56,804 nt of DNA. It comes from Paenarthrobacter sp. Z7-10 (GTDB lineage: Bacteria > Actinomycetota > Actinomycetes > Actinomycetales > Micrococcaceae). Positions 43,919 through 56,804 of the stretch are shown here, piece after piece. The position numbers were made by a program, and so were the translations under genes. A model generated the notes under the pieces. The model worked only from the letters and a program-made list of their open reading frames with translations, was not told the DNA's origin and did no database searches. Where the stretch lies: positions 1 to 56,804 of the forward strand of contig NZ_JADPVH010000025.1 in assembly GCF_026932795.1 (NCBI RefSeq). The letters are read 5' to 3'. Each line of letters begins with the position of its first letter. Within the stretch, counting starts at the first letter, position 1.

Positions 43919-44095
43919 CCTTCGAGCTTGGCACTTTGGCTCCCCGCTGGCAATGGATCGTGGCCACCTGCGCGCAACGGCGTTTACGGTTAGCGTTGCA
44001 CTTGGGACCGAGGGCAAAGTCGACGCAAAAGTCGACACTTAAAACGTCCGCCCGCGCTGGATGACTTGTGCAGCCTCAGAGATGCAGGAGAGACA

Positions 44096-46204
44096 ATGAG
44101 CCGAGGTATCTACGTCAGCGCCACCACCGCGGGATCCGGAAAGTCGCTGATCACGCTTGGCCTGGCGGATATGCTGCACCGGCACGCGGACCGGATCGGC
44201 TTCTTTCGGCCCATCGTCCAGGTGCAGGATCCCACGCAGGATCCGATGGTGGCGCTGATGCGCCGCACTTTCAACTTGGACGACACGCGGTGCCGCGGCG
44301 GGCTGACGGACCAGCAGGCGCGCACCATGCTCGCCGCGGGCCGGCGCGAGGACATCGACACCGCATGCGTGGCCATCTACAGTGAAATCGCCAGCAACTG
44401 CGACGTGGTGATTGTCGAAGGAACGGACCTCACCGGGCACGACGCCGCTGTCGAGTTCGATCTGAACGCACGCCTTGCGAATAACCTGGGTTGCCTGGTG
44501 GTGGCGGTCGTCGGTGCGCGCGGCATGACCGCCGACGAGGCCGCCGACGCGGTTGACGTGGCACGCCGGGAACTGGATGCCGCGCAATGCTCGCTGCTGG
44601 CGATGATGGTCAACCGGGCGGACGAGGCCGAAGTCACCCGCATCGGCGCCGCCGTGCGGCCGGGCGCCTCCCGGCGGCCGGTCTACGTCTTTCCGGAGCT
44701 CGAGGAGCTCTCCCGTCCCACCGTCGCCACGGTGGCCGCTGCGTTGGGCGGCGGGCAGATCGCTGGAAGCTCAAACCTGGAACGCGATGTCACAGGCATC
44801 AAGGTCGCCGCCATGAACGTCGGAAATTTTTTGTCCGTCCTGCGCGACGGTGAGCTGGTAATCACCCCGGGTGACCGGGCGGACGTCATGGTCGCCACGC
44901 TTGCCTCCGCGCTTTCCGCCGAATTCCCGGTTCCTTCCGCCTTGGTGCTTACCGGCGGGCTCTCCCCCGATGCCCATATCTATCCCCTGCTGGCTCAGGC
45001 TCCCTTTCCGGTCTTCGCCGTTGCCGAAGACACCTACCAGACGGCGAAACGGATCAGTGAGGTGCGCGGGGAGATTGCCACCGGCGAGCGCCGCAAGGCC
45101 GCTGCGGCACTGGGCGCGTGGGCGAAAGCGGTGGATGAACCTGAACTGCTGGAACGCCTCACGTTGCCGCGGCCCGAACGGATGACACCTCTGCGGTTCC
45201 TGCATGAACTGATCGAACGGGCCAGGTCCGCCCGGCGGCATATTGTGCTGCCCGAGGGTTTGGACGTGCGGATCCTGCGCGCGGCCGAGATCCTGCACCG
45301 CCGGGATGTCTGTGAGCTCACCCTGCTTGGACCGGTGCACCAGATCCGGGAACTGGCGTCGGCCCACGGAATCGACCTCACCGGCCTGCACCTGAGCGAT
45401 CCGGCCACGAGCGAACTGCGCGAAGACTTCGCGGTGGAGTATGCGCGGCTTCGCGCCCATAAGGGCATCGAGCTGCAGGCCGCCCGGGAGGTGATGCTGG
45501 ACGGTTCCTATTTTGGCACCATGATGGTCCAGCTCGGCATCATGGACGGCATGGTTTCCGGAGCCGCGCACACCACTGCCAACACGATTCGGCCGGCCCT
45601 GGAGTTTGTTAAAACGCAGGAGGGGGTCAGGATCGTTTCGTCGGTTTTTCTGATGCTGCTCACCGATCGGGTTCTGGTGTACGGCGACTGTGCCGTCAAC
45701 CCCGATCCCGATGAGGAACAGCTGGCGGACATCGCCATAGCGTCAGCGGGAACAGCAGCCCAGTTTGGCATCGTTCCGCGCATTGCCATGCTCTCCTACT
45801 CCACCGGGGGTTCCGGCGCCGGGGAGGCAGTGGATCAGGTTCGCCGGGCCACCGCCCTGGTCCATGCCCGCCGCCCGGATCTCGCGGTTGATGGTCCGCT
45901 GCAGTACGACGCCGCCGTCAACGCCTCCATTGCCTTGTCCAAAATGCCCGGATCCTCCGTCGCGGGGCAGGCAACCGTCTTCATTTTTCCCGACCTGAAT
46001 ACCGGCAACAACACCTACAAGGCGGTGCAGCAATCCTCCGGGGCGGTCGCCGTGGGGCCGGTCCTGCAGGGCCTGCGCAAGCCGGTCAACGATCTCTCCC
46101 GCGGCTGCACCGTCGAGGACATCGTCAATACGGTGGCGATCACCGTCGTGCAGTCCCACACCCTGGCACCCGCCGCAGTTCCGCAATCAGAAGGACAGGT
46201 CTGA
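44096..46204 (+). CDS. pta: Phosphate acetyltransferase (long, DRTGG-domain type)
   Basis: Interconverts acetyl-CoA + phosphate and acetyl phosphate + CoA. The 702-residue product has three parts: an N-terminal P-loop-like domain (about 1-210; SATTAGSGKSLITLGLADML), a DRTGG-like regulatory domain (about 215-330; KVAAMNVGNFLSVL, then GELVITPGDRADVMV) and the C-terminal PTA_PTB catalytic domain (about 380-695; HIVLPEGLDVRILRAAEIL, MVSGAAHTTANTIRPAL, FVYGDCAVNPDP). ATG 44096 follows GGAGAG; the frame is open to 44066. ackA starts 2 nt after the stop. Confidence 0.96.
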   Translation: MSRGIYVSATTAGSGKSLITLGLADMLHRHADRIGFFRPIVQVQDPTQDPMVALMRRTFNLDDTRCRGGLTDQQARTMLAAGRREDIDTACVAIYSEIASNCDVVIVEGTDLTGHDAAVEFDLNARLANNLGCLVVAVVGARGMTADEAADAVDVARRELDAAQCSLLAMMVNRADEAEVTRIGAAVRPGASRRPVYVFPELEELSRPTVATVAAALGGGQIAGSSNLERDVTGIKVAAMNVGNFLSVLRDGELVITPGDRADVMVATLASALSAEFPVPSALVLTGGLSPDAHIYPLLAQAPFPVFAVAEDTYQTAKRISEVRGEIATGERRKAAAALGAWAKAVDEPELLERLTLPRPERMTPLRFLHELIERARSARRHIVLPEGLDVRILRAAEILHRRDVCELTLLGPVHQIRELASAHGIDLTGLHLSDPATSELREDFAVEYARLRAHKGIELQAAREVMLDGSYFGTMMVQLGIMDGMVSGAAHTTANTIRPALEFVKTQEGVRIVSSVFLMLLTDRVLVYGDCAVNPDPDEEQLADIAIASAGTAAQFGIVPRIAMLSYSTGGSGAGEAVDQVRRATALVHARRPDLAVDGPLQYDAAVNASIALSKMPGSSVAGQATVFIFPDLNTGNNTYKAVQQSSGAVAVGPVLQGLRKPVNDLSRGCTVEDIVNTVAITVVQSHTLAPAAVPQSEGQV

Positions 46205-46206
46205 AA

Positions 46207-47409
46207 ATGCTGATTCTGGTGCTCAATTCCGGATCTTCCTCGATAAAGTACCAGCTGCGCCAGGTACCCGTCCCGGATGATCCTCTGCGGGCAGCCGACG
46301 GTCCGCAAAGCAATGGCGCCGACGACGGCGGACGGGTCATCACCGGCGGCTTGGTTGAGCGCATCGGCGACCGCGCAGCGGGACCCGACAGCGTCAGCGA
46401 CCACGCCGAGGCGCTGGAGCGGATTGCCCTGGCGGTCAACGAGGCGCTCGACGGTCAGGAGCTCGATGCGGTGGGGCACCGGGTGGTGCACGGCGGCGAG
46501 CGCTTCAGCGCCCCGGTGCTGATCGACAATGAAATTACCCGCGCCATCGAGCGGCTCAATCCGCTGGCGCCGCTGCACAATCCGGCCAACGTTTTGGGCA
46601 TCCGTGCCATCACCGATAAGTGGCCCGCACTGCCACAGGTCGCGGTGTTCGACACGGCCTTCCACCGCACGCTGCCGGAGTTCGCCTGGCGTTACGCGGT
46701 CCCGGACGTGCTCTACCGCAATTTTGGCATCCGCCGCTACGGTTTTCACGGCACCTCGCACGAGTTCGTCGCGCACCAGGCGGCGAAGCTGCTGGGCGTG
46801 GAGCTGGGCGCCTTTTGTGCGGTGATTGCGCATCTGGGCAATGGTGCGTCGGTCGCTGCCATCCAGGACGGCGTGAGCGTTGACACCTCCATGGGGTTCA
46901 CTCCGCTGGAGGGGCTCGTGATGGGGACTCGGTCGGGGGACATCGACCCCTCCATCCTGGTCTTCCTGGCCCGGCAGGGAATGGACGCAGACGAGATCGA
47001 TGACCTGCTGAACCGGGATTCCGGGCTCCAGGCGCTGGCCGGCAATAATGACATGCGCTCCGTGGTGGAATCGGCCGAAGCCGGAAATCACCGGGCCGTG
47101 CTGGCACTGGCGGTCAGCTCGTATCGGCTGGCCAAGTACATAGGTGGTTACCACGTGGCCGTTGGCGGTGCGCAGGCCTTGGTTTTCACTGCCGGCATCG
47201 GAGAGAATTCCTGGCAGTTCCGCCAGCTGGTGGCCGGACGGTTGAGCGCTCTGGGCATTAAGCTCGACGACGACGCCAACCGGAAGCGCAGCAAGGAACC
47301 TCGGGTGATCAGCACGGCGGATTCAGACATCGCCGTCCTGGTGGTGCCAACGGACGAGGAGCGGGCGATCGCGGAGGCGACGGCCGCCGTCGTCGTCAGC
47401 TCCCGCTGA
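46207..47409 (+). CDS. ackA: Acetate kinase
   Basis: Interconverts acetate + ATP and acetyl phosphate + ADP. The 400-residue product carries NSGSSSIKYQL at the N-terminus (phosphate binding), FDTAFHRTLP near 150, RYGFHGTSHEFVAHQAA near 178, HLGNGASVAAI and TPLEGLVMGTRSGDIDP (catalytic Arg/Asp) and FTAGIGENS. Residues 20-45 (PDDPLRAADGPQSNGADDGG) are a polar insertion. AAGGACAGG inside the pta end acts as RBS. Together with pta it forms a reversible acetate/acetyl-CoA node. Confidence 0.96.
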   Translation: MLILVLNSGSSSIKYQLRQVPVPDDPLRAADGPQSNGADDGGRVITGGLVERIGDRAAGPDSVSDHAEALERIALAVNEALDGQELDAVGHRVVHGGERFSAPVLIDNEITRAIERLNPLAPLHNPANVLGIRAITDKWPALPQVAVFDTAFHRTLPEFAWRYAVPDVLYRNFGIRRYGFHGTSHEFVAHQAAKLLGVELGAFCAVIAHLGNGASVAAIQDGVSVDTSMGFTPLEGLVMGTRSGDIDPSILVFLARQGMDADEIDDLLNRDSGLQALAGNNDMRSVVESAEAGNHRAVLALAVSSYRLAKYIGGYHVAVGGAQALVFTAGIGENSWQFRQLVAGRLSALGIKLDDDANRKRSKEPRVISTADSDIAVLVVPTDEERAIAEATAAVVVSSR

Positions 47410-48314: not shown

Positions 48315-48719
48315 TCAGGAAGTTATAGCCAGGGCGTCGATTTCCACGAGCATGACCTCGTGCGGGAGGTCAACGAAAACTGTGGTGCGGCTGGGCAGTG
48401 CGCCGCCGGGCACGTTTTCCTGGATAAACTCACCGTAGACCTCGTTCATGGCGGCGAAGTCCGCGCGTTTGGTGAGATATACCCGGAACATCAGCACGTC
48501 TTCCACCGAGGATCCCCCGGCCAGCAGGATCGCCCTGATATTCTCCAAAGTCCGCCGGGTCTGGACGCGAACGTCCCCTTCGCCGATGTACTGGTTCGTT
48601 TCCGGATCCATGGGTCCCTGGCCGGAGACCTGAAAAAATCCGCCCTTTTGGATTCCCTGGCTGAAGACATGGGCCGGAGCCGGAGCATTTTCGGTCAGTA
48701 CAACATTTTTTTCACTCAT
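48315..48719 (-). CDS. RidA-family enamine/imine deaminase
   Basis: A 134-residue protein of the RidA (YjgF/UK114) family, which hydrolyses reactive 2-aminoacrylate-type enamines and imines released by PLP dehydratases. Landmarks: FFQVSGQGPMDPETNQYIG near 28-46, TRRTLENIRAILLAGGSSVEDVLMFRVYLTKRADF, and the C-terminal catalytic-arginine segment ALPSRTTVFVDLP with EVMLVEIDALA. Its start overlaps the IclR gene by 8 nt. Position in the cluster suggests it assists the PLP enzyme encoded at 50815-52194. Confidence 0.93.
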   Translation of the reverse strand: MSEKNVVLTENAPAPAHVFSQGIQKGGFFQVSGQGPMDPETNQYIGEGDVRVQTRRTLENIRAILLAGGSSVEDVLMFRVYLTKRADFAAMNEVYGEFIQENVPGGALPSRTTVFVDLPHEVMLVEIDALAITS

Positions 48720-49476
48720 GTGTGGTCCTTTCGGGATTTACCCAGCCCAAGTCCGCGGAAATGGCCTCGGTGCCGGCTTTGAGATCGGGCAGCAATTTCA
48801 GCAGATCGCTGTAGCCAAGCAGCACGACGGGAACGGAGAAGGATGCGGCCGCGATAACGCGCCCGCTGGCGTCCCGGACAGGGGCTGCAATACAGTGCAC
48901 GAAGGACTCATGCTCTGCATTGTCATGCGCCCAACCCTGTTCCTTCACTTCCACCAGTTCGGCCAGCAGTTGTTCAGGCGTGGTGATCGTATTGGCCGTG
49001 AGCTTGATGTAGTCCAGCCCCCTGGCAATGTGTTCCTGGCGGGCGGGCGGCATGTCGGCCAGCAGCACTTTGGCGACGGCTGCGGAGTGCAGCGCCGCGG
49101 TCAGTCCCACCCTGGAATACATCCGTACCGGGTGATGTGATTCGAACTTGTCGATGTACACCACCTCACCGCCCTCGAAGGCAGCCAAGTGGACCGTGTG
49201 TCCGGTCCGGGCGTTGAGTTCGGCAAGATGAGAATGCGCCACCGTGCGGATGTCGCGCTGCTCCAGTGCCTTGGAGGACAATTCAAAGAATTTCGAGCCC
49301 AGCCTGAAGCGCTGACTTTCGTCGCGCACCACGAACCGCTTCTCCTCCATTGCGTGCAGCAGCCGCATAACTGTGGTTTTGTGCACCGATGCCTTGCCGG
49401 CGAGGTCATCCAGGGTGGCCGGCTTTTGGGCCAGCTCCGCCAGCAGGTCAAGGGCCCGGCTCAGACTCTGGCTCAT
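48712..49476 (-). CDS. IclR-family regulator of the 48-57 kb catabolic cluster
   Basis: A 254-residue regulator: N-terminal winged helix (SLSRALDLLAELAQKPATLDDLAGKASVHKTTVMRLLHAMEEKRFV, about 3-50) and effector-binding domain (GHTVHLAAFEGGEVVYIDKFES; HSAAVAKVLLADMPP; CIAAPVRDASGRVIAAASFSVP). It overlaps the kinase gene by 4 nt and RidA by 8 nt. It probably binds the 22-bp inverted repeat at 50738-50759 and controls both divergent operons. Confidence 0.92.
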   Translation of the reverse strand: MSQSLSRALDLLAELAQKPATLDDLAGKASVHKTTVMRLLHAMEEKRFVVRDESQRFRLGSKFFELSSKALEQRDIRTVAHSHLAELNARTGHTVHLAAFEGGEVVYIDKFESHHPVRMYSRVGLTAALHSAAVAKVLLADMPPARQEHIARGLDYIKLTANTITTPEQLLAELVEVKEQGWAHDNAEHESFVHCIAAPVRDASGRVIAAASFSVPVVLLGYSDLLKLLPDLKAGTEAISADLGWVNPERTTHE

Positions 49477-50594
49477 GGCGCCTCTTCAGGCATTGCGGCT
49501 GCCCCCTCCACTCCGGCCATCATCCGCATAGCGGCCCACTCCTCATCACTTCCGGCCAGAATGGCCGCCACCATGTGTGCCGGCGGCAGCGCGCCCCGGT
49601 CGCCATTCACAATCAGCGTACTTGCCGCGCTCAGATGTCCGCGGCGCAGGCAGGATTTTTGGTCCAGGCCGAGGGCCATTCCGCTCAAATATCCGGCCGC
49701 GAAGGCATCCCCGGCTCCAACGGGCTCCACTACCTCCACCCGCAAGGCGGGAACGTCCACCCGGCTTCCGTCCCGGCAGAGCGCGGTGGCAGAAATGTCG
49801 GCGTTCTTGATCACCAGGACCTCTGGATCCGGCAGCAGCCGGCGTAGCCGGCTCTCGTCGTCGGTACCGAAGGCAAGCTCGGCCTCATCGCGTCCCATCA
49901 GGACCACGTCGGCGAGGTTGGCCAGCTCCGCCAGGATGGAAGCATCCCGTCCGGCCCACAGCGCCGGGCGCCAATTGACGTCAAAGCTGATGATCCGGCC
50001 CTTTCGTTCGGCGCGGAGAATGGCCCGGGAAAGCTCCGCGCAGTCCTCCGACAGCGCCGCGGTGATGCCGCTGAGGTGGATCAGCGCGGCCTCCCGCAGC
50101 AGCGACGCCACGGCGGGATTGGCCAGTGTTGCCGGACCCATGGCGGAGGCCGCCGAGCCGCTGCGGTAGTAGATGACCGAGCTCATTCCGGCGGCCGGGC
50201 CGTCCGCCTGCCCGAGGACGGGAGGTCCGCCGACTCTGCCGCCTATGCCCTCTTTGTCGCCTATGCCGGGGTCCGCAGGCACGACGACGGACGGGTCGCC
50301 GGCGGGGGTCACGGCGGGAACCTTGACGTACAAGCCCGTGGGCCGAACCGGATCCACCTCCACCCCCGAGGTTCCGACGCCGTGCGCGCGCAAGTCGTTC
50401 AGGATGCGCGTACCGAACCCGTCCCGGCCCACCCTGCCGATCCAGTGCGCCGGCAGGCCCATGCTGCTCAGCCCCATGGCGACATTTGATTCCGCCCCGC
50501 CGATGCCAAACAGAAGTTCGGTGGCTTCGTGCAGCGGCGCGGCCCGGGGGGTGAGCATGGCCATGGTTTCACCGATGCAGACGGCTGACGGCAC
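49473..50594 (-). CDS. PfkB-family sugar kinase, 2-keto-3-deoxygluconate kinase-like
   Basis: A 373-residue ribokinase-fold kinase. Signatures: CIGETMAMLTP at the start, GGAESNVAMGLSSMGLPAHWIGRVGRDGFG (PfkB motif 1, about 33-61), FDVNWRPALWAG (typical of KdgK), VGAGDAFAAGYLSGMALG (motif 2, catalytic Asp). A Gly-rich insertion (about 97-136) is unusual and lengthens the protein beyond the usual ~310-330. GTG 50594 is chosen because GAGAGGAAG lies upstream; the frame is open to 50846. With the KDPG aldolase at 53858 it implies phosphorylation of 2-keto-3-deoxygluconate. Confidence 0.85.
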   Translation of the reverse strand: MPSAVCIGETMAMLTPRAAPLHEATELLFGIGGAESNVAMGLSSMGLPAHWIGRVGRDGFGTRILNDLRAHGVGTSGVEVDPVRPTGLYVKVPAVTPAGDPSVVVPADPGIGDKEGIGGRVGGPPVLGQADGPAAGMSSVIYYRSGSAASAMGPATLANPAVASLLREAALIHLSGITAALSEDCAELSRAILRAERKGRIISFDVNWRPALWAGRDASILAELANLADVVLMGRDEAELAFGTDDESRLRRLLPDPEVLVIKNADISATALCRDGSRVDVPALRVEVVEPVGAGDAFAAGYLSGMALGLDQKSCLRRGHLSAASTLIVNGDRGALPPAHMVAAILAGSDEEWAAMRMMAGVEGAAAMPEEAP

Positions 50595-50715
50595 GAGCGG
50601 CACTTCCTCTCGGTGGTTGAAGCTGTTGGCGGGGTGAGCCCCGAGTGCGCGTAATTCCGGCCGGACGAACCGGACGAACGGGCCCGGCGGCGGCCTTGAC
50701 TGACGAACTGCACCC

Positions 50716-50745
50716 ATGTTAGACATGTTTTCAGCAGTGTTGCAA
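50716..50745 (-). promoter_or_regulatory. Promoter of the kinase-IclR-ridA operon
   Basis: On the minus strand TTGCAA (-35, 50740-50745) and TAACAT (-10, 50716-50721) are 18 nt apart, about 115 nt upstream of the kinase start. The -35 lies inside the inverted repeat at 50738-50759. A second short inverted repeat, CATGT-TAG-ACATG (50715-50727), overlaps the -10. Confidence 0.45.
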
Positions 50746-50759
50746 CCATCGTTGCAACA
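50738..50759. promoter_or_regulatory. 22-bp inverted repeat, likely IclR operator
   Basis: Perfect 9-bp arms TGTTGCAAC and GTTGCAACA are separated by CATC. Each arm holds the self-complementary TTGCAA. It sits between the divergent kinase and PLP-enzyme operons and overlaps the predicted -35 of the former. Size and symmetry suit IclR-family operators. Confidence 0.7.
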
Positions 50760-50814
50760 TACGCAATGCCTGTACCGCCCCGGCCGCCGCCGGCATCCGA
50801 AGGGACTTACGGCT

Positions 50815-52194
50815 TTGAATTCATTTTCCACAGCTGCCGCCGACAATCCCGGCTCCGCAGGGCAAACCGGCCAGCAGATCAGCGCCGAGGCCGTGGACCA
50901 GTTGCAGGACGAGGTACTGGACTGGCGCTACAAGGCCGCCCCCGCTTCCGCGTCCGGCCAAACCGCCGGCGATTTTACCCGCTCCGGAAAGAGCCTGGCC
51001 GACCTGCAGACCCCGCTGCTGACCCTGGATGCCGGTGCTCTGCGGGAGAACATGGATCATCTGGCCGCGTGGTGCGCCCGGCACGGCGTTCTGTTGGCCC
51101 CGCACGGAAAAACCACCATGGCACCTCAGCTCTGGTCCGAGCAGCTGCGCCGCGGGGCGTGGGGCATCTCGCTGGCCAACCTCGCCCAGCTGCGGGTGGC
51201 GCGCGCCTTCGGTGTGCACCGGCTGATGCTCGCCAACTCGCTGACGGATCCACACGCGATAAGGTGGGTGGCCGGCGAATCCAGCCGGGAAAACCCGATC
51301 CTGTCCTGGGTTGATTCGGTGCAGACGGTCGAACTGCTTGAACGCACGCTCGCTGCGATGGAGGGCAAGGTGGTCCTCGACGTCCTGGTTGAAGTGGGCG
51401 GCCTGGGCGGACGCACCGGTGCCCGGGGCTTTGATGCCGCGCTGGAGGTTGCCCGCGCCGCGGCTAACTCCGACTTCCTGCGGCTGCGGGGCATCAGCGG
51501 CTACGAGGGATCACTGGCCCACGCCGCGGATCCGGAGAGCCTGGCCAAGGTGCGTAACTTCCTGCTGGAAATGAAGTCCGTCCATCAGGAACTGCTGGCG
51601 GCCAAGCTGTATGCCGCGGACGCGGATATTGTGCTGACGGCCGGCGGAAGCGCCTACTTCGACACCGTGGTGGAGGTGCTCGGTCCCTGCATTGGGGCAG
51701 CGGCAGCGGAATCCGGAAAAGCGGAAGATACCAAGGAGCAGCGCGTTGATCTGGTCATCCGCAGCGGGGCCTACATCATCCACGACGACGGCTTCTACCG
51801 CCAGATCTCCCCCTTTTCCCGGCACGGCGCGCAGCCGCTGCGCGCCGGAATGCACGGCTGGGCCCGGGTGGTTTCCAGCCCCGAGCCAGGACTGGCCATC
51901 CTGGATGCCGGCAAGCGCGATCTGCCGGTGGATGAAGGACTTCCGGTTCCACAGGCCATCGGCTCCGGACTGGGCGCCCCGATGCGGCCGCTGGCGGGCA
52001 GCATCACCGCCGTCAATGACCAGCACTGTTTCCTGCGCTTTGACGCCGCTGCCAGCCAGGTTCTTCCGGGCGACGTGGTGCGCCTTGGACTCTCGCATCC
52101 CTGCACCGCTTTCGATAAATGGACGCTTATCCCCGTCCTCGCGGACACCGAAAATGACCAGAGGGTCGTGGACCTGGTCCACACTTTTTTCTAG
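50815..52194 (+). CDS. PLP-dependent D-threonine-aldolase/D-serine-dehydratase-like deaminase
   Basis: A 459-residue fold-type III PLP enzyme of the alanine-racemase-barrel family that includes D-threonine aldolase, D-serine dehydratase and D-glucosaminate dehydratase. Motifs: LQTPLLTLDAGALRENMDHLAAWCARHGVLLAPHGKTTMAPQLW, with the Schiff-base lysine near 99; VLVEVGGLGGRTGARG; TAGGSAYFDTV; and the C-terminal metal/substrate segment GLSHPCTAFDKWTLIPV (His, Cys). Start TTG 50815 follows AAGGGA; the frame is open upstream to 50716. In this cluster, amino-sugar-acid (D-glucosaminate) deamination is the best guess; D-serine-type deamination is possible. Confidence 0.85.
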   Translation: MNSFSTAAADNPGSAGQTGQQISAEAVDQLQDEVLDWRYKAAPASASGQTAGDFTRSGKSLADLQTPLLTLDAGALRENMDHLAAWCARHGVLLAPHGKTTMAPQLWSEQLRRGAWGISLANLAQLRVARAFGVHRLMLANSLTDPHAIRWVAGESSRENPILSWVDSVQTVELLERTLAAMEGKVVLDVLVEVGGLGGRTGARGFDAALEVARAAANSDFLRLRGISGYEGSLAHAADPESLAKVRNFLLEMKSVHQELLAAKLYAADADIVLTAGGSAYFDTVVEVLGPCIGAAAAESGKAEDTKEQRVDLVIRSGAYIIHDDGFYRQISPFSRHGAQPLRAGMHGWARVVSSPEPGLAILDAGKRDLPVDEGLPVPQAIGSGLGAPMRPLAGSITAVNDQHCFLRFDAAASQVLPGDVVRLGLSHPCTAFDKWTLIPVLADTENDQRVVDLVHTFF

Positions 52195-52200
52195 GCGCCC

Positions 52201-53865
52201 ATGACTGATCATTTCTCCGCCGCTCAACCGGCACACGCCACCCTGATCCGCAATGCCACAGTGGTGGACGGCACCGGCGCACCGCGCCGGCCCTTGGACG
52301 TCGTCGTCGACCGCGGCCGAATCAACCGGCTGGCTCCTCCCGGAACGTTGGACGCCGCCGGGTTTAGAATGGCGAACGTCATCGACGCCGATGGCCTGGT
52401 ACTGAGTCCCGGTTTCATCGACATGCACGCCCATTCGGACCTGCAGCTGCTGCTCAATCCGGCCCATTACGCCAAACTCAGCCAGGGCGTCACGACGGAG
52501 CTGCTGGGACAGGACGGGCTGTCCTACGCGCCGGTGGATGACGTGGTGCTGGCAGGGGTGCGGGCGAAAATCGCCGGCTGGAACGATGATCCGGCAGACT
52601 TTGATTTCTCCTGGCGCAGCGTACGCGGGTACCTGGACCGGCTGGATGAAGGGATCGCAACGAACGCGGCCTATCTGGTTCCCCAGGGCACCATCCGTGC
52701 CATGGTGATGGGCTTCGAGCAGGCCGAAGCGACGGCGGAGCAAGTGGCGCGGATGCAGGCGCTGGTCCGCACGGCGATGGACGAGGGGGCGGTAGGGATG
52801 TCCTCCGGCCTGACCTACACTCCCGGCATGTACGCCAGCACCGAGGAATTGGCCGCGCTGTGCCGCACGGTGGCTTCCTGCGGCGGTTTTTACGCCCCGC
52901 ATCACGGCTCCTACGGGAAGGGCGCGTTGACGGCGTACGCCGAAATGATCGAGCTCAGCCGCGTCACCGGCTGCCCGCTGCACCTGTCCCATGCCACCAT
53001 GAACTTCGCCCCGAACAAGGGACGTGCGGGGGAGCTGCTGGCGCTGATCGAGCAGGCATTGGACGACGGCGTCGACATCACCTTGGATACGTATCCTTAC
53101 CTTCCCGGCGCCACCACGCTCGCCGCTATCCTGCCCAGTTGGGCATCTTCGGGCGGGAGCGAGGCGACACTGGAACGGCTGGCCGACCCGGCTTGCCTGG
53201 CCAGGATCCGGACGGACCTTGAGGTCAACGGCTCCGATGGCTGTCACGGCGTGGTGGTCGAATGGGAGACCCTGGAGATCAGCGGAGTCCGCGACTCGAC
53301 CCTGACCGGCTGCGTCGGCAAGACCATAGCCGGCATCGCGGCGGAAAGCGGGCGGCCGGCATTCGAAGTGTTCGTTCAGATCCTGCGCACGGACCGGATG
53401 GCGACCGGGATCCTGCAGCACGTGGGGCATGAGGAGAACGTCCGGGCCATTCTGGTGCATAGCACCCATACCGGTGGAAGCGATGGCATCCTGGTGGGAG
53501 CCAAGCCGCACCCGCGGTCCTGGGGAACCTTTCCCCGCTTCCTGGGCCATTACTGCCGCGAATTGGGTCTGCTCAGCCTGGAGGACATGGTCCACCATCT
53601 CACCGGCCGCCCCGCCGCCCGGCTCAAACTCGACAGGCGTGGACTGATTCGTCCCGGCTTTGCCGCCGACCTGGTGATCTTCGATCCGAAAACCATCACG
53701 GACACCGCCAGCTTCGAGGAGCCCCGCCAGCCCGCCACCGGAATCGAGTACGTCTTCGTCAACGGCACAGCCGCCATTGCGGCCGGGAGTCCCACCGGGG
53801 CGTTGGCCGGGAGAGCCCTAAGACACACCAGCAACAGCGAAGGAAAGACCACAGCTCATGACTGA
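52201..53865 (+). CDS. N-acyl-D-amino-acid deacylase (amidohydrolase family)
   Basis: A 554-residue metal-dependent amidohydrolase of the D-aminoacylase family. Features: N-terminal beta-domain, FIDMHAHSDLQ (His-x-His, about 75-77), GVTTELLGQDGLSYAP (about 96-111), YAPHHGSYGKG, PLHLSHATMNFAPNKG (metal/substrate His) and HTGGSDGILVGAKPHPRSWGTFPRFLGHY (catalytic Asp). Most characterised D-aminoacylases have a zinc-binding Cys in GNCG; here the same spot reads GQDG (Asp105). The ATG starts 6 nt after the previous stop; the 3' end overlaps the aldolase gene by 8 nt. The proposed job is to deacetylate an N-acetyl-amino-sugar acid; N-acetyl-D-amino acids are the alternative. Confidence 0.9.
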   Translation: MTDHFSAAQPAHATLIRNATVVDGTGAPRRPLDVVVDRGRINRLAPPGTLDAAGFRMANVIDADGLVLSPGFIDMHAHSDLQLLLNPAHYAKLSQGVTTELLGQDGLSYAPVDDVVLAGVRAKIAGWNDDPADFDFSWRSVRGYLDRLDEGIATNAAYLVPQGTIRAMVMGFEQAEATAEQVARMQALVRTAMDEGAVGMSSGLTYTPGMYASTEELAALCRTVASCGGFYAPHHGSYGKGALTAYAEMIELSRVTGCPLHLSHATMNFAPNKGRAGELLALIEQALDDGVDITLDTYPYLPGATTLAAILPSWASSGGSEATLERLADPACLARIRTDLEVNGSDGCHGVVVEWETLEISGVRDSTLTGCVGKTIAGIAAESGRPAFEVFVQILRTDRMATGILQHVGHEENVRAILVHSTHTGGSDGILVGAKPHPRSWGTFPRFLGHYCRELGLLSLEDMVHHLTGRPAARLKLDRRGLIRPGFAADLVIFDPKTITDTASFEEPRQPATGIEYVFVNGTAAIAAGSPTGALAGRALRHTSNSEGKTTAHD

Positions 53866-54493
53866 CGAGGAATTCATCGCCCGCCTTGCCGCCGACCGCT
53901 CCCTGGTGGTGGTCCGCGCACCCGTCATTCCGGATGCGGCCCAACTCTGCCAGGCGTTGGCCGACGGCGGCATCCGCAGCATCGAGCTGACGTTCACCAC
54001 CCCCGACGTGCTGCGGCACCTGAGCGCCGCCGTCGCAGCGGCCGACGGGCATGGCGCCGTCGTCGGCGTGGGAACCATTCTCACCGCCGACCAGGCCCGC
54101 GCTGCCGTCGACGCCGGTGCGCAGTTCCTGGTCACCCCCGGGCTGCGCCCCGCTGTGGCAAAGGTGGCGGTCGAGGCCGGCATTCCGTTGTGCCTGGGCG
54201 CCATGACGCCCACAGAGGTGGCCCAGGCCATGGACCTGGGCTCGGCGGTGGTGAAGATCTTTCCTGCCCGGCAGCTCGGACCGGCCTACCTGAAGGACCT
54301 GCAGGGACCCTATCCCGGAGTCCAGCTGCTCCCTTCCGGCGGGATCAGCGCCGCCAACGCGCTGGACTACCTCAACGCCGGAGCTGTGGCCGTTTGCTGC
54401 GGCACCAGCGTGGTGCCGCCGGCCGCCGTGGCGGAGGGAAAATGGTCGGATATCACCGCGCGGGCCACCGCCTTCACCGGGGCGCTGAATTGA
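53858..54493 (+). CDS. eda: KDPG/KHG-type aldolase
   Basis: A 211-residue class I aldolase cleaving 2-keto-3-deoxy-6-phosphogluconate to pyruvate and glyceraldehyde-3-phosphate (or the 4-hydroxy-2-oxoglutarate analogue). Landmarks: IRSIELTFTTPDV with catalytic Glu43, GVGTILTADQA, FLVTPGL, Schiff-base Lys133 in VVKIFPARQLGPAYLKDLQGP, and the phosphate loop PSGGISAANALDYLNAGAVAVCCGTSVVP. It overlaps the deacylase by 8 nt (translational coupling), a strong hint that it serves the same pathway. Confidence 0.93.
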   Translation: MTDEEFIARLAADRSLVVVRAPVIPDAAQLCQALADGGIRSIELTFTTPDVLRHLSAAVAAADGHGAVVGVGTILTADQARAAVDAGAQFLVTPGLRPAVAKVAVEAGIPLCLGAMTPTEVAQAMDLGSAVVKIFPARQLGPAYLKDLQGPYPGVQLLPSGGISAANALDYLNAGAVAVCCGTSVVPPAAVAEGKWSDITARATAFTGALN

Positions 54494-54566
54494 CCACCGC
54501 GCGCCCGAAGAGTGGAGCCGGAGCGGTCGGCGCCGCTGCTGACAAAGAGCACGGGCGCGTGACAGG

Positions 54567-55151
54567 ATGAGCCATGTGAGCACCGTGTCCGCCACTGGGA
54601 GCAGCGGAAAGCCCGGAGACCTGCCACGCAGCGGTCCACGCGTGCTGGTTCTCATGGGGGTCTCCGGCTGCGGCAAAACCACTGTTGCTGCGCTCCTTTC
54701 CGATCAACTCGGCTGGGACTTTGAAGAAGGCGATTCCCTGCACCCGCAGGCCAATGTGGACAAGATGGCTGCCGGTCATCCGCTCAACGACGAGGACCGG
54801 TGGCCCTGGCTGGACAAGGTGGCCGAATGGATCAACGGTCGGTTGGACGCGCACCAGAACGGCATCGTGACCTGTTCCGCGCTTAAGCGCTCTTACCGGG
54901 CCAAACTTGCCCGGCCCGGCGTCATCTTCGTGTATTTGAACGGAGACCAGGAGACTATCGCCGCCCGGCTGGCCAGGCGGCAGGGACATTTCATGCCGGC
55001 CGCCCTGCTGGCCAGCCAGTTCGCCGATCTTGAGGAACCCGGCCCGGATGAGGCCGCCCTGTGGGTCAGCGTTGGACCCCCTCCGGGTGAAATCGTCCGG
55101 ACCATAACCGAGGACCTATCCCTCGGACAACAGACGCCCACCATTAACTAA
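54567..55151 (+). CDS. gntK: Gluconokinase (GntK family)
   Basis: A 194-residue P-loop kinase: Walker A GVSGCGKTT (about 31-39), then EEGDSLHPQANVDKMAAGHPLNDEDRWPWL and SALKRSYRAKL, matching GntK-type gluconokinases that make 6-phosphogluconate. Residues 1-23 are a Ser/Gly-rich extension. GACAGG precedes the ATG; a 73-nt gap separates it from the aldolase. The cluster may therefore process gluconate alongside the amino-sugar acid, or this kinase may act on another aldonate. Confidence 0.9.
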   Translation: MSHVSTVSATGSSGKPGDLPRSGPRVLVLMGVSGCGKTTVAALLSDQLGWDFEEGDSLHPQANVDKMAAGHPLNDEDRWPWLDKVAEWINGRLDAHQNGIVTCSALKRSYRAKLARPGVIFVYLNGDQETIAARLARRQGHFMPAALLASQFADLEEPGPDEAALWVSVGPPPGEIVRTITEDLSLGQQTPTIN

Positions 55152-55167
55152 GGACAGGAGAAGAGTG

Positions 55168-56730
55168 ATGAGTCTTTTAACCCACCTTCAACCCGCCGCG
55201 GCCTATCTGGCCGCCGGCGATGACACAATGGCAAAAATCCATGAACCTTGGGTTGGCCATGACAGCCAAGTGCTGATTATCACCGCGATAGGCATCGGCA
55301 TCGTCGTGGGCCTGATCGTCTGGCTCAAGATGCACCCGTTCCTGGCCTTGACCATCGGCTCGCTTTTCGTCGGCATCGGTTCCGGCATTGCGCTCGGATC
55401 CGTCGCGCACTCCTTCGAAACCGGTGTGGGGGCGGTGTTGGGCAACGTTGGTGTGCTCATTGTCCTTGGCGCCATGCTCGGTAAACTGCTGGCGGATTCC
55501 GGCGGTGCGGACGAAATCGTGGACACCCTGCTCAAGGGAAGCCCGCGGGCGCTGCCCTGGAAGATGGCACTCGTTGCCTTCATTATCGGCATCCCAATGT
55601 TCTTTGAAATCGGCTTGGTGCTGCTGATACCCGTTATTATGCTCGCGGTCAAACGTTCCAAGGGCCCGGCCATGTTGCTGGCCATCCCCGCACTGGCCGG
55701 GTTGTCAGTGCTGCACGGATTCATTCCGCCGCACCCCGGACCACTCGTTGCGATCGCAAACCTGCACGCCGACGTCGGCATCACCTTGGCCATCGGCCTG
55801 GTCATCGCGGTTCCCACCGTCGCCATCGCCGGTCCACTGTTCTCGCGGTTCGCCGCCAAGTGGGTCCCGATCGGGGCCCAGGGCGCCGGTGGCGGACTGA
55901 TCGGTGCAGGTGCACGGACGGGCTCCGGCTCCCCGGCTGCCGCGGCAGGGTCCGTCGGGCTCTCCCCCCGTGACACCGGCACCGGAAGCGCGGTCTCCGC
56001 GGAAGTCTCCGCGGAGACCGGAGCCATGGCCGAAGGACGCAGCCGTGATCCCGAGGCCCGGCGCAGCCCCACCTTCACCTGGACATTGATCACCGTCCTC
56101 TCGCCCGTGGTGCTGATGCTGATCCGCGCCGCCTCCGACCTGTGGATGAGCAAGGACGCGGCACTCTACCCGTTCCTGCAGTTCATCGGTGAGCCCATCG
56201 TTGCCCTGCTGATTGCCGTGCTGCTGGCCATGATCACCTTCGGCACCTCAGTCGGCTTCTCCGCCTCAACCCTGACCAGCAAGCTCAGCGAGTCCCTGAT
56301 GCCCATTGTCAGCGCCACCATGATCGTCGGCGCCGGCGGCGGGTTCAAGCAGGTCCTGGTCGACGGCGGAACGGGCATCGCAATCGGCAAGATCGCTGTC
56401 GCCGTAAGCATCTCGGCGATCCTGCTGGGCTGGATCGTTGCGGTGATGATCCGGCTGGCGACAGGCTCTGCCACCGTCGCCACCATTACCGCCTCGGGCA
56501 TCGTGGCGCCGCTGGCATCATCACTTCCGCCCACCCATCTGGCACTGGTGGTGCTGGCCGTTGGAGCCGGGTCGCTGTTCTTCTCGCATGTAAACGACGC
56601 CGGATTCTGGCTGGTCAAGGAATACTTTGGCATGACCGTTGGGCAGACCATCAAGACTTGGTCGGTGATGGAGACGATCATCTCCGTCGTCGGCCTGATC
56701 CTGGTGTCTCTGCTGTCCCTGGTCTTGTAG
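55168..56730 (+). CDS. GntP-family aldonate:H+ symporter
   Basis: A 520-residue permease with about 12-14 hydrophobic segments. GntP motifs: GAMLGKLLADSGGADEIVDTLL, IPMFFEIGLVLLIPVI, GLSVLHGFIPPHPGPLVAI near residues 185-205, and C-terminal SLFFSHVNDAGFWLVKEYFGMTVGQTIKTWSVMETI. A polar, Gly/Ala/Ser-rich cytoplasmic loop (about 240-300) is longer than usual. The family imports gluconate, idonate, D-serine and related acids, fitting a role as the pathway's uptake system. AGGAG precedes ATG 55168, which is preferred over GTG 55165. Confidence 0.93.
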   Translation: MSLLTHLQPAAAYLAAGDDTMAKIHEPWVGHDSQVLIITAIGIGIVVGLIVWLKMHPFLALTIGSLFVGIGSGIALGSVAHSFETGVGAVLGNVGVLIVLGAMLGKLLADSGGADEIVDTLLKGSPRALPWKMALVAFIIGIPMFFEIGLVLLIPVIMLAVKRSKGPAMLLAIPALAGLSVLHGFIPPHPGPLVAIANLHADVGITLAIGLVIAVPTVAIAGPLFSRFAAKWVPIGAQGAGGGLIGAGARTGSGSPAAAAGSVGLSPRDTGTGSAVSAEVSAETGAMAEGRSRDPEARRSPTFTWTLITVLSPVVLMLIRAASDLWMSKDAALYPFLQFIGEPIVALLIAVLLAMITFGTSVGFSASTLTSKLSESLMPIVSATMIVGAGGGFKQVLVDGGTGIAIGKIAVAVSISAILLGWIVAVMIRLATGSATVATITASGIVAPLASSLPPTHLALVVLAVGAGSLFFSHVNDAGFWLVKEYFGMTVGQTIKTWSVMETIISVVGLILVSLLSLVL

Positions 56731-56769: not shown

Positions 56770-56804
56770 AGCAGGGGTGGAAGCTTGACGCTTCCACCCC
56801 TGCT
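56770..56804. terminator. Strong terminator at the right edge
   Basis: A perfect 15-bp stem (arms AGCAGGGGTGGAAGC and GCTTCCACCCCTGCT, loop TTGAC) ends exactly at the window edge. The A-run GAAAAAG just before it provides a T-tract on the minus strand, so it can end a convergent gene beyond the window; the plus-strand 3' context is outside. Confidence 0.85.

Follow-up and report, generated by a model that had tools for sequence, protein, structure and literature searches.

A conserved divergent gene unit in Actinomycetota that may catabolize N-acetyl-D-glucosaminate or a related amino-sugar acid

The window (the whole stretch of DNA that we analysed) is 56,804 nucleotides from Paenarthrobacter sp. 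Z7-10. A sequence-only reading had named eight genes near its end, and open reading frames together with Pfam and NCBIfam models confirmed their identities. The features are listed below; fractions are loci with a match among the 80 best named Actinomycetota loci ("named loci").

48315..48719, minus strand: RidA-family enamine/imine deaminase (PF01042, 2e-29; 79/80)
48712..49476, minus strand: IclR-family regulator (PF01614, 2e-46; 77/80)
49473..50603, minus strand: PfkB-type 2-keto-3-deoxygluconate (KDG) kinase, KdgK (PF00294, 1e-41; 70/80)
50738..50759, no strand: palindromic operator TGTTGCAAC-N4-GTTGCAACA, in the gap between the divergent operons
50815..52194, plus strand: PLP-dependent fold-type III enzyme, proposed aminosugar-acid deaminase (ammonia-lyase/dehydratase) (PF14031; PDB 3gwq, 3e-56; 80/80)
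52201..53865, plus strand: D-aminoacylase-like amidohydrolase (the deacylase), proposed N-acetyl-aminosugar-acid deacetylase (PF07969, 3e-45; residue comparison, tree and AU test below; 80/80)
53858..54493, plus strand: KDPG (KHG) aldolase, Eda (TIGR01182, 5e-55, above cut-off; 51/80)
54567..55151, plus strand: gluconokinase, GntK (TIGR01313, 3e-56, above cut-off; a local addition)
55165..56730, plus strand: GntP-family permease (TIGR00791, 1e-123, above cut-off; GntP in 60/80)

Eda scores 186 bits against the TIGR01182 cut-off of 156, and the C-terminal domain of the PLP enzyme scores 63.1 bits (4e-17) against the Pfam cut-off of 22 for PF14031. The best NCBIfam model for the kinase is a KDG/KDGal kinase (2e-42), under its cut-off, and the nearest model for the regulator is KdgR (4e-52), at 177 bits and below the cut-off of 275. 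The reading frame of the deacylase has no internal stop. The likeliest start of kdgK is the GTG at 50603 or 50594. The start of the PLP gene is not fixed: its ORF is open from an ATG at 50716, and the likeliest start is 3' of the palindrome, such as the TTG at 50815. With these starts, the gap between the divergent operons is about 210 bp. The operons had been described as tightly overlapping. Genes do overlap or abut, but only inside each operon; the operons themselves are separate, and the impression of an overlap between them comes from taking the longest ORFs.

The inverted repeat that had been noticed in this region is real: TGTTGCAAC-CATC-GTTGCAACA, at 50738-50759, has perfect 9-bp arms and is the sole perfect copy in the window's genome. 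We searched 32 loci (the window, L002, and 30 family loci) for the core TTGCAAC-N4-GTTGCAA with at most one mismatch. It is present in the gap between kdgK and the PLP gene in 24 of the 32 and nowhere else in those loci. So, the palindrome is a conserved operator that is common to both operons, and the IclR regulator may bind it. The window's genome also contains one further weak palindrome site, with two mismatches (C54:34821).

The core genes, ridA-iclR-kdgK on one side and PLP enzyme-deacylase-eda on the other, form a conserved divergent unit. The unit is complete in 30 of the 40 family loci that we fetched and in 51 of the 80 named loci, and all six genes are divergently arranged in 81/81 complete loci. 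Seven family loci from genus g23 (L074-L080), as well as L070, were excluded from the 32 genomes that we consider syntenic, because, in these, the deacylase-like ORF either lacks some catalytic residues or is on its own. The gluconokinase and the window's type of GntP are local and lie outside the conserved unit. The gluconokinase had been proposed as a pathway member, but this was not borne out, as GntK is beside the unit in 0 of 120 other loci. The window's GntP is only ~33% identical to the GntP of most relatives' clusters; permeases like it are also found at loci L136 and L139. We considered ackA-pta (44066-47409) as the acetate-handling part of the system, and left it out because neither gene is beside the unit in the 120 other loci.

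Judging from its genes, we propose that the unit probably serves to break down an N-acetylated 2-amino-2-deoxy-aldonic acid. Among N-acyl amino-sugar acids, the most likely substrate is N-acetyl-D-glucosaminate (GlcNAc1A), which is the C1-oxidised end of LPMO-cut chitin. The free acid would be imported by GntP, and the amidohydrolase would remove acetate to give D-glucosaminate. The PLP enzyme would eliminate water and ammonia to give KDG, with the enamine/imine cleared by RidA. Given their family memberships, KdgK would convert KDG to KDPG, and Eda would convert KDPG to pyruvate and glyceraldehyde-3-phosphate. Both operons would be controlled by IclR via the one palindrome, whose site is conserved.

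It could be argued that two unrelated modules adjoin in the window: one for gluconate (GntK, GntP, Eda, and KdgK) and one for D-amino acids. GntK and GntP are both present, and gluconate is the classic substrate of GntP. However, KdgK and Eda travel with the PLP enzyme and the deacylase in relatives that have no adjoining GntK, and one conserved operator site is common to the kdgK and PLP genes. Also, we found no 6-phosphogluconate dehydratase (Edd) above cut-off in the window's genome, which a gluconate module would use to form KDPG. Because of the missing Edd and because GntK is not beside the unit elsewhere, we consider the two-module explanation very improbable. Without an Edd above cut-off, KDG from the amino-sugar-acid pathway is the best explanation for the aldolase.

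The sequence-only reading pointed to a marine oxidative-chitin pathway, and this pathway exists as described: the ong pathway consists of the deacetylase OngB, the deaminase OngC, and KdgK, together with a protein of the RidA type that is essential in vivo (PMC9537276, PMC12017989). This system is from Pseudoalteromonas prydzensis (PMC9537276); we also used the homologous locus L039 of strain CF6-2. Because these activities follow one another in the same order when ong breaks down GlcNAc1A (PMC9537276), the ong pathway supports our amino-sugar-acid proposal. By family, ong and the window's unit share a D-aminoacylase-fold deacetylase, a fold-type III PLP deaminase, a KDG kinase, and RidA. For the kinase and RidA, the likeness to the ong cluster is by family only, with the kinase below KDG-kinase cut-offs. 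The KDPG aldolase is shared with the ong versions of Vibrio, Klebsiella, and Serratia. In contrast, ong has an SSS transporter and a MurR/RpiR regulator, while the window's unit has GntP and IclR. The ong cluster also has a GH20, which the actinobacterial unit has only in some relatives and not in the window. A query with OngIT matches only L037-L040. The window's genes are 27.6-33% identical to the ong genes, which is at the edge of the rule of the 2022 screen (four genes >30%). The published distribution of ong is Gammaproteobacteria and one Betaproteobacterium, and OngC acts also on D-serine and D-threonine (PMC9537276).

The deacylase differs from OngB at several sites. In an alignment of 113 deacylase sequences, the HxH motif and two His ligands are kept in all 113 and the catalytic Asp in 112. 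The metal-ligand Cys of OngB is Asp in 113/113 (Asp105 in the window), so the Cys/His/His metal site of the subtype V amidohydrolases (D-aminoacylases) is not found here. The Lys for the alpha-carboxylate in OngB and AfDam is replaced by Thr in 111/113; Glu226 is Tyr and Ser292 (C3 hydroxyl in OngB) is Thr, both in 113/113. Because the Cys ligand, the carboxylate Lys, Glu226, and Ser292 are all changed, OngB's substrate recognition is not transferable to the deacylase. The column for Gln298 of OngB (C5 hydroxyl) is unreliably aligned: Arg is placed there in AfDam too, where the published residue is Leu298. Compared to AfDam (PDB 1m7j, 1rjp), the deacylase has the same fold, HxH, two His ligands, and Tyr194, Tyr285, Arg379, and catalytic Asp positions, but besides the changes of Cys and Lys, the pocket Phe and Met are replaced by Thr (104/113) and Asn (112/113). 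These polar residues support the amino-sugar-acid reading. The likeness to BbDam (3gip) is by fold and PDB match only. The AlphaFold model of the deacylase (mean pLDDT 70.9, 12 rows) informs on the fold only, because the metal-site loop (77-108) is of low confidence. With this predicted model, Foldseek placed D-aminoacylase and OngB structures closest, and ranked those of AfDam, the Klebsiella deacylase, and OngB about equally.

The two enzymes fall outside the groups of the corresponding ong enzymes. In the deacylase tree, the OngB sequences group with AfDam (99*), apart from the window's clade, and placing the window's clade and OngB in one group is rejected (p-AU 5.25e-05, with groups named after the tree was seen). 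The PLP enzyme is 37.5% identical to 3gwq and is in the same fold-type III family by sequence. 3gwq, from Burkholderia xenovorans, was deposited as a D-serine deaminase. In a PLP tree without a biochemically proven D-serine dehydratase, OngC groups with 3gwq, and both lie outside the window's clade. A single clade of OngC and the window's PLP clade is rejected (p-AU 7.77e-06, with groups again named after the tree was seen). Phylogeny against characterised oxidative-chitin enzymes had been suggested as a check, and it indicates that neither enzyme is an orthologue of OngB or OngC. Both were probably recruited independently of their gammaproteobacterial counterparts, in a case of convergence. 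Thus, in the route to pyruvate and glyceraldehyde-3-phosphate that had been put forward, the four activities plus KDPG aldolase do stand in one conserved unit, but they are not transplanted marine ong enzymes.

These comparisons also bear on whether the deacylase, the D-serine-dehydratase-like enzyme, and RidA salvage N-acyl-D-amino acids (of the D-serine or D-threonine type), with the sugar genes as bystanders. Proven D-amino-acid enzymes are known from both families, the deacylase is closer to AfDam (36.9% identity) than to PpOngB (31.5%), and, like D-aminoacylases, it has Thr where OngB has Ser292. Some loci also fit salvage: L003 has the deacylase, the PLP enzyme, and RidA but no match for KdgK or Eda; in L165, the deacylase and RidA adjoin a gene annotated as alanine racemase; and among the 80 named loci, 10 have no match for KdgK and 29 have none for Eda. 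On the other hand, KdgK and Eda are kept in the unit at 81 loci, the side-chain pocket is polar and the conserved Lys is lost, and the unit has GH20, sugar ABC transporter, and lactonase neighbours in some lineages. Because the kinase and the aldolase are conserved in the unit, we consider salvage to be quite unlikely, but we keep it as a rival.

The neighbours of the unit vary, with a GH20 hexosaminidase and a sugar ABC transporter adjoining it in three arrangements in some relatives. A query with OngA (GH20) matched 6 of 40 family loci (L041, L042, L043, L048, L049, and L055), where about 0.3 would be expected by chance (65 matches in 32 genomes of ~4 Mb), and 9 of 80 named loci (Arthrobacter psychrochitiniphilus L083, which is L042's contig, L085, Amycolatopsis L106, L107, L108, L112, L121, L154, and L155). 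In most loci (34/40 family and 71/80 named), it had no match beside the unit. Ten of these GH20 genes were scanned with Pfam and all ten passed. ABC transporter genes were confirmed beside the unit in L043, L048, L055, and L106; the GH20 of L041 is flanked on its other side by xdhC, not by an ABC gene. A lactonase query matched 12 of 80 named loci (including its own source, L141) and 0 of 40 family loci; all three of the lactonase genes that we scanned with Pfam passed. A conserved unit with GH20, sugar ABC transporter, and lactonase neighbours therefore supports an amino-sugar-acid pathway. In some relatives, the ABC transporter and GH20 may feed in oxidised oligosaccharides, and the lactonase may open the 1,5-lactone.

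The same pathway logic could apply to a different N-acyl amino-sugar acid; N-acetyl-D-galactosaminate, for example, would be broken down via KDGal and KDPGal. GalNAc can also be a target of GH20 enzymes, the kinase's best model is for a bifunctional KDG/KDGal kinase, if below cut-off, and the annotations in an ong-like cluster of K. pneumoniae include 2-dehydro-3-deoxygalactonokinase and KDPGal aldolase. However, Eda clears the KDPG/KHG cut-off but, at 110 bits, not that of the KDPGal model NF006600 (207). Also, chitin oxidation is the known large source of GlcNAc1A (PMC12017989). Overall, we view an amino-sugar acid other than GlcNAc1A as unlikely.

The idea that the window's strain is a chitin degrader with LPMOs fails: in its draft genome (134 contigs, completeness 100), we found 0 matches for AA10 LPMOs and no match for GH18. 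Because of this, we suggest that in this strain, the GlcNAc1A pathway is that of a scavenger of the acid. Other genomes with the unit vary. AA10 is present in 23 of the 42 unit-bearing named genomes that we searched, but is missing from 25 of 32 unit-bearing family genomes, including the window's own. Within the family, 21/32 unit-bearing genomes have GH20 vs. 24/263 others, and 7/32 have AA10 vs. 5/263. (If all 40 genomes are kept as unit-bearing, these become 21/40 vs. 24/255 and 7/40 vs. 5/255.) These associations are not phylogenetically independent; at the genus level, p = 0.034 for GH20 and 0.044 for AA10. In a sample of 346 genomes from the phylum, the 9 genomes with both the unit and AA10 are all from one genus.

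More broadly, Actinomycetota may have evolved a pathway for the oxidised chitin monomer independently of Gammaproteobacteria, with a different branch of the D-aminoacylases (with Asp for the Cys ligand and without the carboxylate Lys) and another PLP enzyme leading into the same KDG route. It would occur in many families, including in genomes without AA10 LPMO or GH18, such as the window's own, that live on others' oxidised products. We see this broader scenario as about equally likely to be right or wrong. In the literature that we searched, we found no description of the actinobacterial unit or of the fate of oxidised chitin ends in actinobacteria, and the route has so far been described in Proteobacteria. 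A term search of a review of actinobacterial chitinolysis (PMC6097792) gave no instance of the words "oxidized," "aldonic," "lactone," or "glucosaminic." If our proposal is correct, then the unit fills the oxidised-end gap for much of a phylum, it is the second instance in which enzymes for D-amino acids have been adapted to sugar acids, and it defines a group of deacetylases with a changed metal site that is open to direct assay.

We also note that in three genomes of one genus, an LPMO lies ~19-40 kb from the unit. We give this little weight, because our scan covered three of the intervening genes, all in G143, and these are not chitin genes (they belong to the citrate-synthase, PEP-mutase/ICL, and MmgE/PrpD families). 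In the window's genome, the 20 kb that we examined around its one GH20 gene contains no operator core. That gene is on another contig, near genes for a protein with an ABC-ATPase domain and a member of the enoyl-CoA-hydratase family.

All eight genes that the sequence-only reading had placed at 48315-56730 were found by gene calls and family scans. The minus-strand operon runs kdgK-iclR-ridA, with overlaps of 4 and 8 bp, and the plus-strand operon runs from the fold-type III PLP enzyme gene through the deacylase gene, eda and gntK to gntP, with (in order) a 6-bp gap, an 8-bp overlap, a 73-bp gap and a 13-bp gap. Genes within each operon overlap or abut, but the two divergent operons do not overlap each other. 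The most likely start of the kinase is GTG 50603 or 50594, and that of the PLP gene lies 3' of the palindrome between the operons. The window is an entire contig (C53) of a draft genome of 3.98 Mb (134 contigs, completeness 100). Three features of the window stood out:

49473-50603, minus strand: kdgK, the kinase gene; an insertion of ~35 residues, absent from the kinase of the Arthrobacter comparison locus L002; Pfam match split in two pieces
55165-56730, plus strand: gntP, the permease gene; contains a Gly/Ala/Ser-rich stretch; Pfam match also split in two
56770-56804, 3' of gntP, where the contig ends: inverted repeat of two perfect 15-bp arms around a 5-nt loop, either a terminator or an assembly end

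We propose that this unit breaks down N-acetyl-D-glucosaminate (GlcNAc1A) or a similar acid via KDG and KDPG. In Pseudoalteromonas, OngB deacetylates GlcNAc1A, OngC deaminates the product to KDG, and KdgK phosphorylates it; a RidA protein, OngD, is indispensable in vivo, and a KDPG aldolase gene is present in some ong clusters (PMC9537276, PMC12017989). Judged by protein family, the window's unit would have five activities in common with this pathway. Eda might instead be fed from gluconate via 6-phosphogluconate dehydratase, but this is unlikely, as no such dehydratase in the window's genome scored over the cut-off (247.7 bits vs 708). The gluconokinase, which had been listed with the pathway genes, is local to the window: none of the 120 other loci has one beside the unit. 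Acetate kinase and phosphotransacetylase were also absent beside the unit in all 120. The window's GntP shares only ~33% identity with the usual one, and its type recurs in just two of these loci (L136 and L139); a search of the window's genome with the usual GntP found no second GntP.

The unit is conserved well beyond the window. Among 295 genomes of the family (Micrococcaceae), 40 had a deacylase match at 1e-100, including the window's own, and the remaining 39 genomes gave us 40 loci (one has two copies). Thirty of the 40 loci contain all six core genes (RidA, IclR, KdgK, PLP enzyme, deacylase and Eda); all 30 are divergent, and 26 have the usual type of GntP. The ten incomplete loci are L069 (near a contig edge), L070 (a lone copy), L072 (a second copy without the PLP gene) and seven from genus g23. 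Among named genomes, a scan found at least 545 relatives, and the best 80 span Arthrobacter, Nocardia, Rhodococcus, Kitasatospora, Amycolatopsis, Kribbella, Streptomyces and others. Among these best 80 of at least 545, the PLP enzyme was present in 80, RidA in 79, IclR in 77, KdgK in 70, GntP in 60 and Eda in 51; 51 have all six core genes, all divergent. Because these loci are the best matches, the figures apply to close relatives, and four of the 80 (L083, L089, L091 and L102) are on the same contigs as family loci. The deacylase was found in 12 of 346 genomes sampled across the phylum (at 1e-150, including the window's own) and in one of five from the window's genus (at 1e-60).

The inverted repeat that had been noticed between the operons is conserved too. 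Its core, TTGCAAC-N4-GTTGCAA, occurs in the kdgK/PLP gap without mismatches in 15 of 32 loci (the window, L002 and 30 family loci) and with at most one mismatch in 24; outside the gap, these loci contain no such sites. Among the named loci (L001 and the 80), 26 of 70 testable gaps have the core with up to two mismatches, and there are none elsewhere; at three mismatches it is found in 42 of 70 gaps, with 12 sites elsewhere. The only perfect copy of the full palindrome in the window's genome is in this gap (one other site has two mismatches). We predict that it is the IclR operator.

The enzymes themselves are not OngB and OngC. The window's deacylase is 31.5% identical to PpOngB and 36.9% to the D-aminoacylase AfDam, and its PLP enzyme is 32.0% identical to OngC of strain CF6-2 and 37.5% to 3gwq, which was deposited as a D-serine deaminase. 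In our trees, OngB groups with AfDam (support 99) and OngC with 3gwq (98-99). Constraining the window's clades to group with OngB or OngC was rejected (p-AU = 5.25e-05 and 7.77e-06, from quick trees with long branches and with groups picked once the tree was seen). RidA is 33.0% identical to OngD, and KdgK is 27.6% identical to its ong counterpart over 181 residues.

We compared residues across 113 deacylases of the unit's type (58% identity or more and over 480 residues, from 134 tblastn matches; a genome may recur). All 113 retain the HxH motif, both His ligands, Tyr194, Tyr285 and Arg379, and 112 retain the catalytic Asp. Asp replaces the Cys ligand, Tyr replaces Glu226 and Thr replaces Ser292 in all 113, and Lys254, which is associated with the carboxylate, is replaced by Thr in 111, so the carboxylate must be bound in some other way. 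The pocket has Thr at position 193 (104/113) and Asn at position 256 (112/113), more polar than the Phe and Met of AfDam, which would fit a polyhydroxy side chain. An AlphaFold model has the D-aminoacylase/OngB fold (mean pLDDT 70.9, with a poor metal-site loop). Two more distant D-aminoacylase homologs, from Natrinema (L163) and Rhodovastum (L164), also have Asp at the Cys-ligand position but retain the Lys and Glu; the Asp-type metal site may therefore predate the unit's pathway.

A 2022 screen required four co-occurring genes, each over 30% identical to ong genes. Compared to the CF6-2 genes and PpOngB, the window's unit has three genes at 30-33% and KdgK at 27.6%, just under this rule, which is probably why such units were overlooked. 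Our literature search, mainly of openly accessible papers, found no description of actinobacterial GlcNAc1A catabolism among the matches listed; related sources are a review of actinobacterial chitinolysis (PMC6097792) and an Aeromonas study in which OngB and OngC matches were only distant or absent (PMC11653859).

Some loci have a GH20 gene nearby. An OngA (GH20) query matched six of the 40 family loci (L041, L042, L043, L048, L049, L055), with ~0.3 expected by chance (from 65 matches in 32 genomes of ~4 Mb, at 17 kb per locus), and nine of the 80 named loci (L083, L085, L106, L107, L108, L112, L121, L154, L155); L083 and L042 are one contig. Pfam confirmed GH20 in all ten that were scanned (L041, L043, L048, L049, L055, L085, L106, L112, L154, L155). 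There are three arrangements. In genus g25, GH20 lies on the far side of GntP, within an ABC-GH20-IclR operon in L043 and L048, and with xdhC as its other neighbor in L041. Elsewhere in the Micrococcaceae (L049, L055, L085), it is the far side of RidA that has a GH20-IclR pair, preceded in L055 by two ABC permeases (the L049 and L085 sequences end there). In Amycolatopsis (L106, L112, L155) and Saccharopolyspora (L154), a series of genes comes after GntP: those for a lactonase and a binding protein, one or more permease genes, and GH20. Twelve of the 80 named loci matched a lactonase query, among them its source, Actinospica L141, where the lactonase abuts ridA; none of the 40 family loci did. 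In Kribbella L124, an extracellular solute-binding protein takes GntP's usual place.

At the genome level, GH20 was found in 21 of 32 unit-bearing family genomes vs 24 of 263 others, and AA10 in 7 of 32 vs 5 of 263. The genomes are related; counted by genus, the figures are 7/12 vs 4/20 for GH20 (p = 0.034) and 3/12 vs 0/20 for AA10 (p = 0.044). AA10 was present in 23 of 42 named unit-bearing genomes searched and in 13 of 346 genomes of the phylum sample, where it occurs together with the unit in nine, all from one genus. Three genomes of one genus (G098, G114, G143) have an AA10 LPMO gene at a distance of ~19-40 kb from the unit. The expectation that the window's host degrades chitin with LPMOs fared poorly: we found no AA10 or GH18 in its 134-contig draft, and the single GH20 match lies on a different contig from the unit.

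The pathway originally suggested remains our preferred explanation, with the substrate as a prediction: the five activities and the conserved unit favor it, but the enzymes differ from OngB and OngC. The best explanation is a separate pathway, spread over Actinomycetota and built from other recruits, which in some lineages is coupled with GH20, ABC transport and a lactonase.

Several related loci are worth recording. The seven g23 loci (L074-L080; for example, L075:7665-9227) contain full-length deacylase-like ORFs (41-45% identity), adjoining eda in six, that have all lost the second His of HxH and the His222, Asp368 and Arg379 positions; they are candidate pseudoenzymes. The L070 deacylase has Ala at the catalytic Asp and keeps the other positions checked. 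In an ong-like cluster on a K. pneumoniae plasmid (L040:7986-9425), the deacylase matches PDB 9g5m, whose sequence 9gv8 shares, at 100% identity over 473 residues. The PDB entry was deposited as an N-acyl-D-amino-acid deacylase; despite this name, the plasmid enzyme bears the OngB signature of Ser290-292 and Gln298. Two actinobacterial loci, L003 and L005, have the deacylase (GQDG-type, 36-41% identical to the window's), the PLP enzyme and RidA, with a kinase in L005 and no match for Eda, and possibly serve another N-acyl substrate. The L001 and L003 records are filed as plasmids but look chromosomal: L001 has ftsE, ftsX and smpB, and the L003 record is 11.9 Mb.
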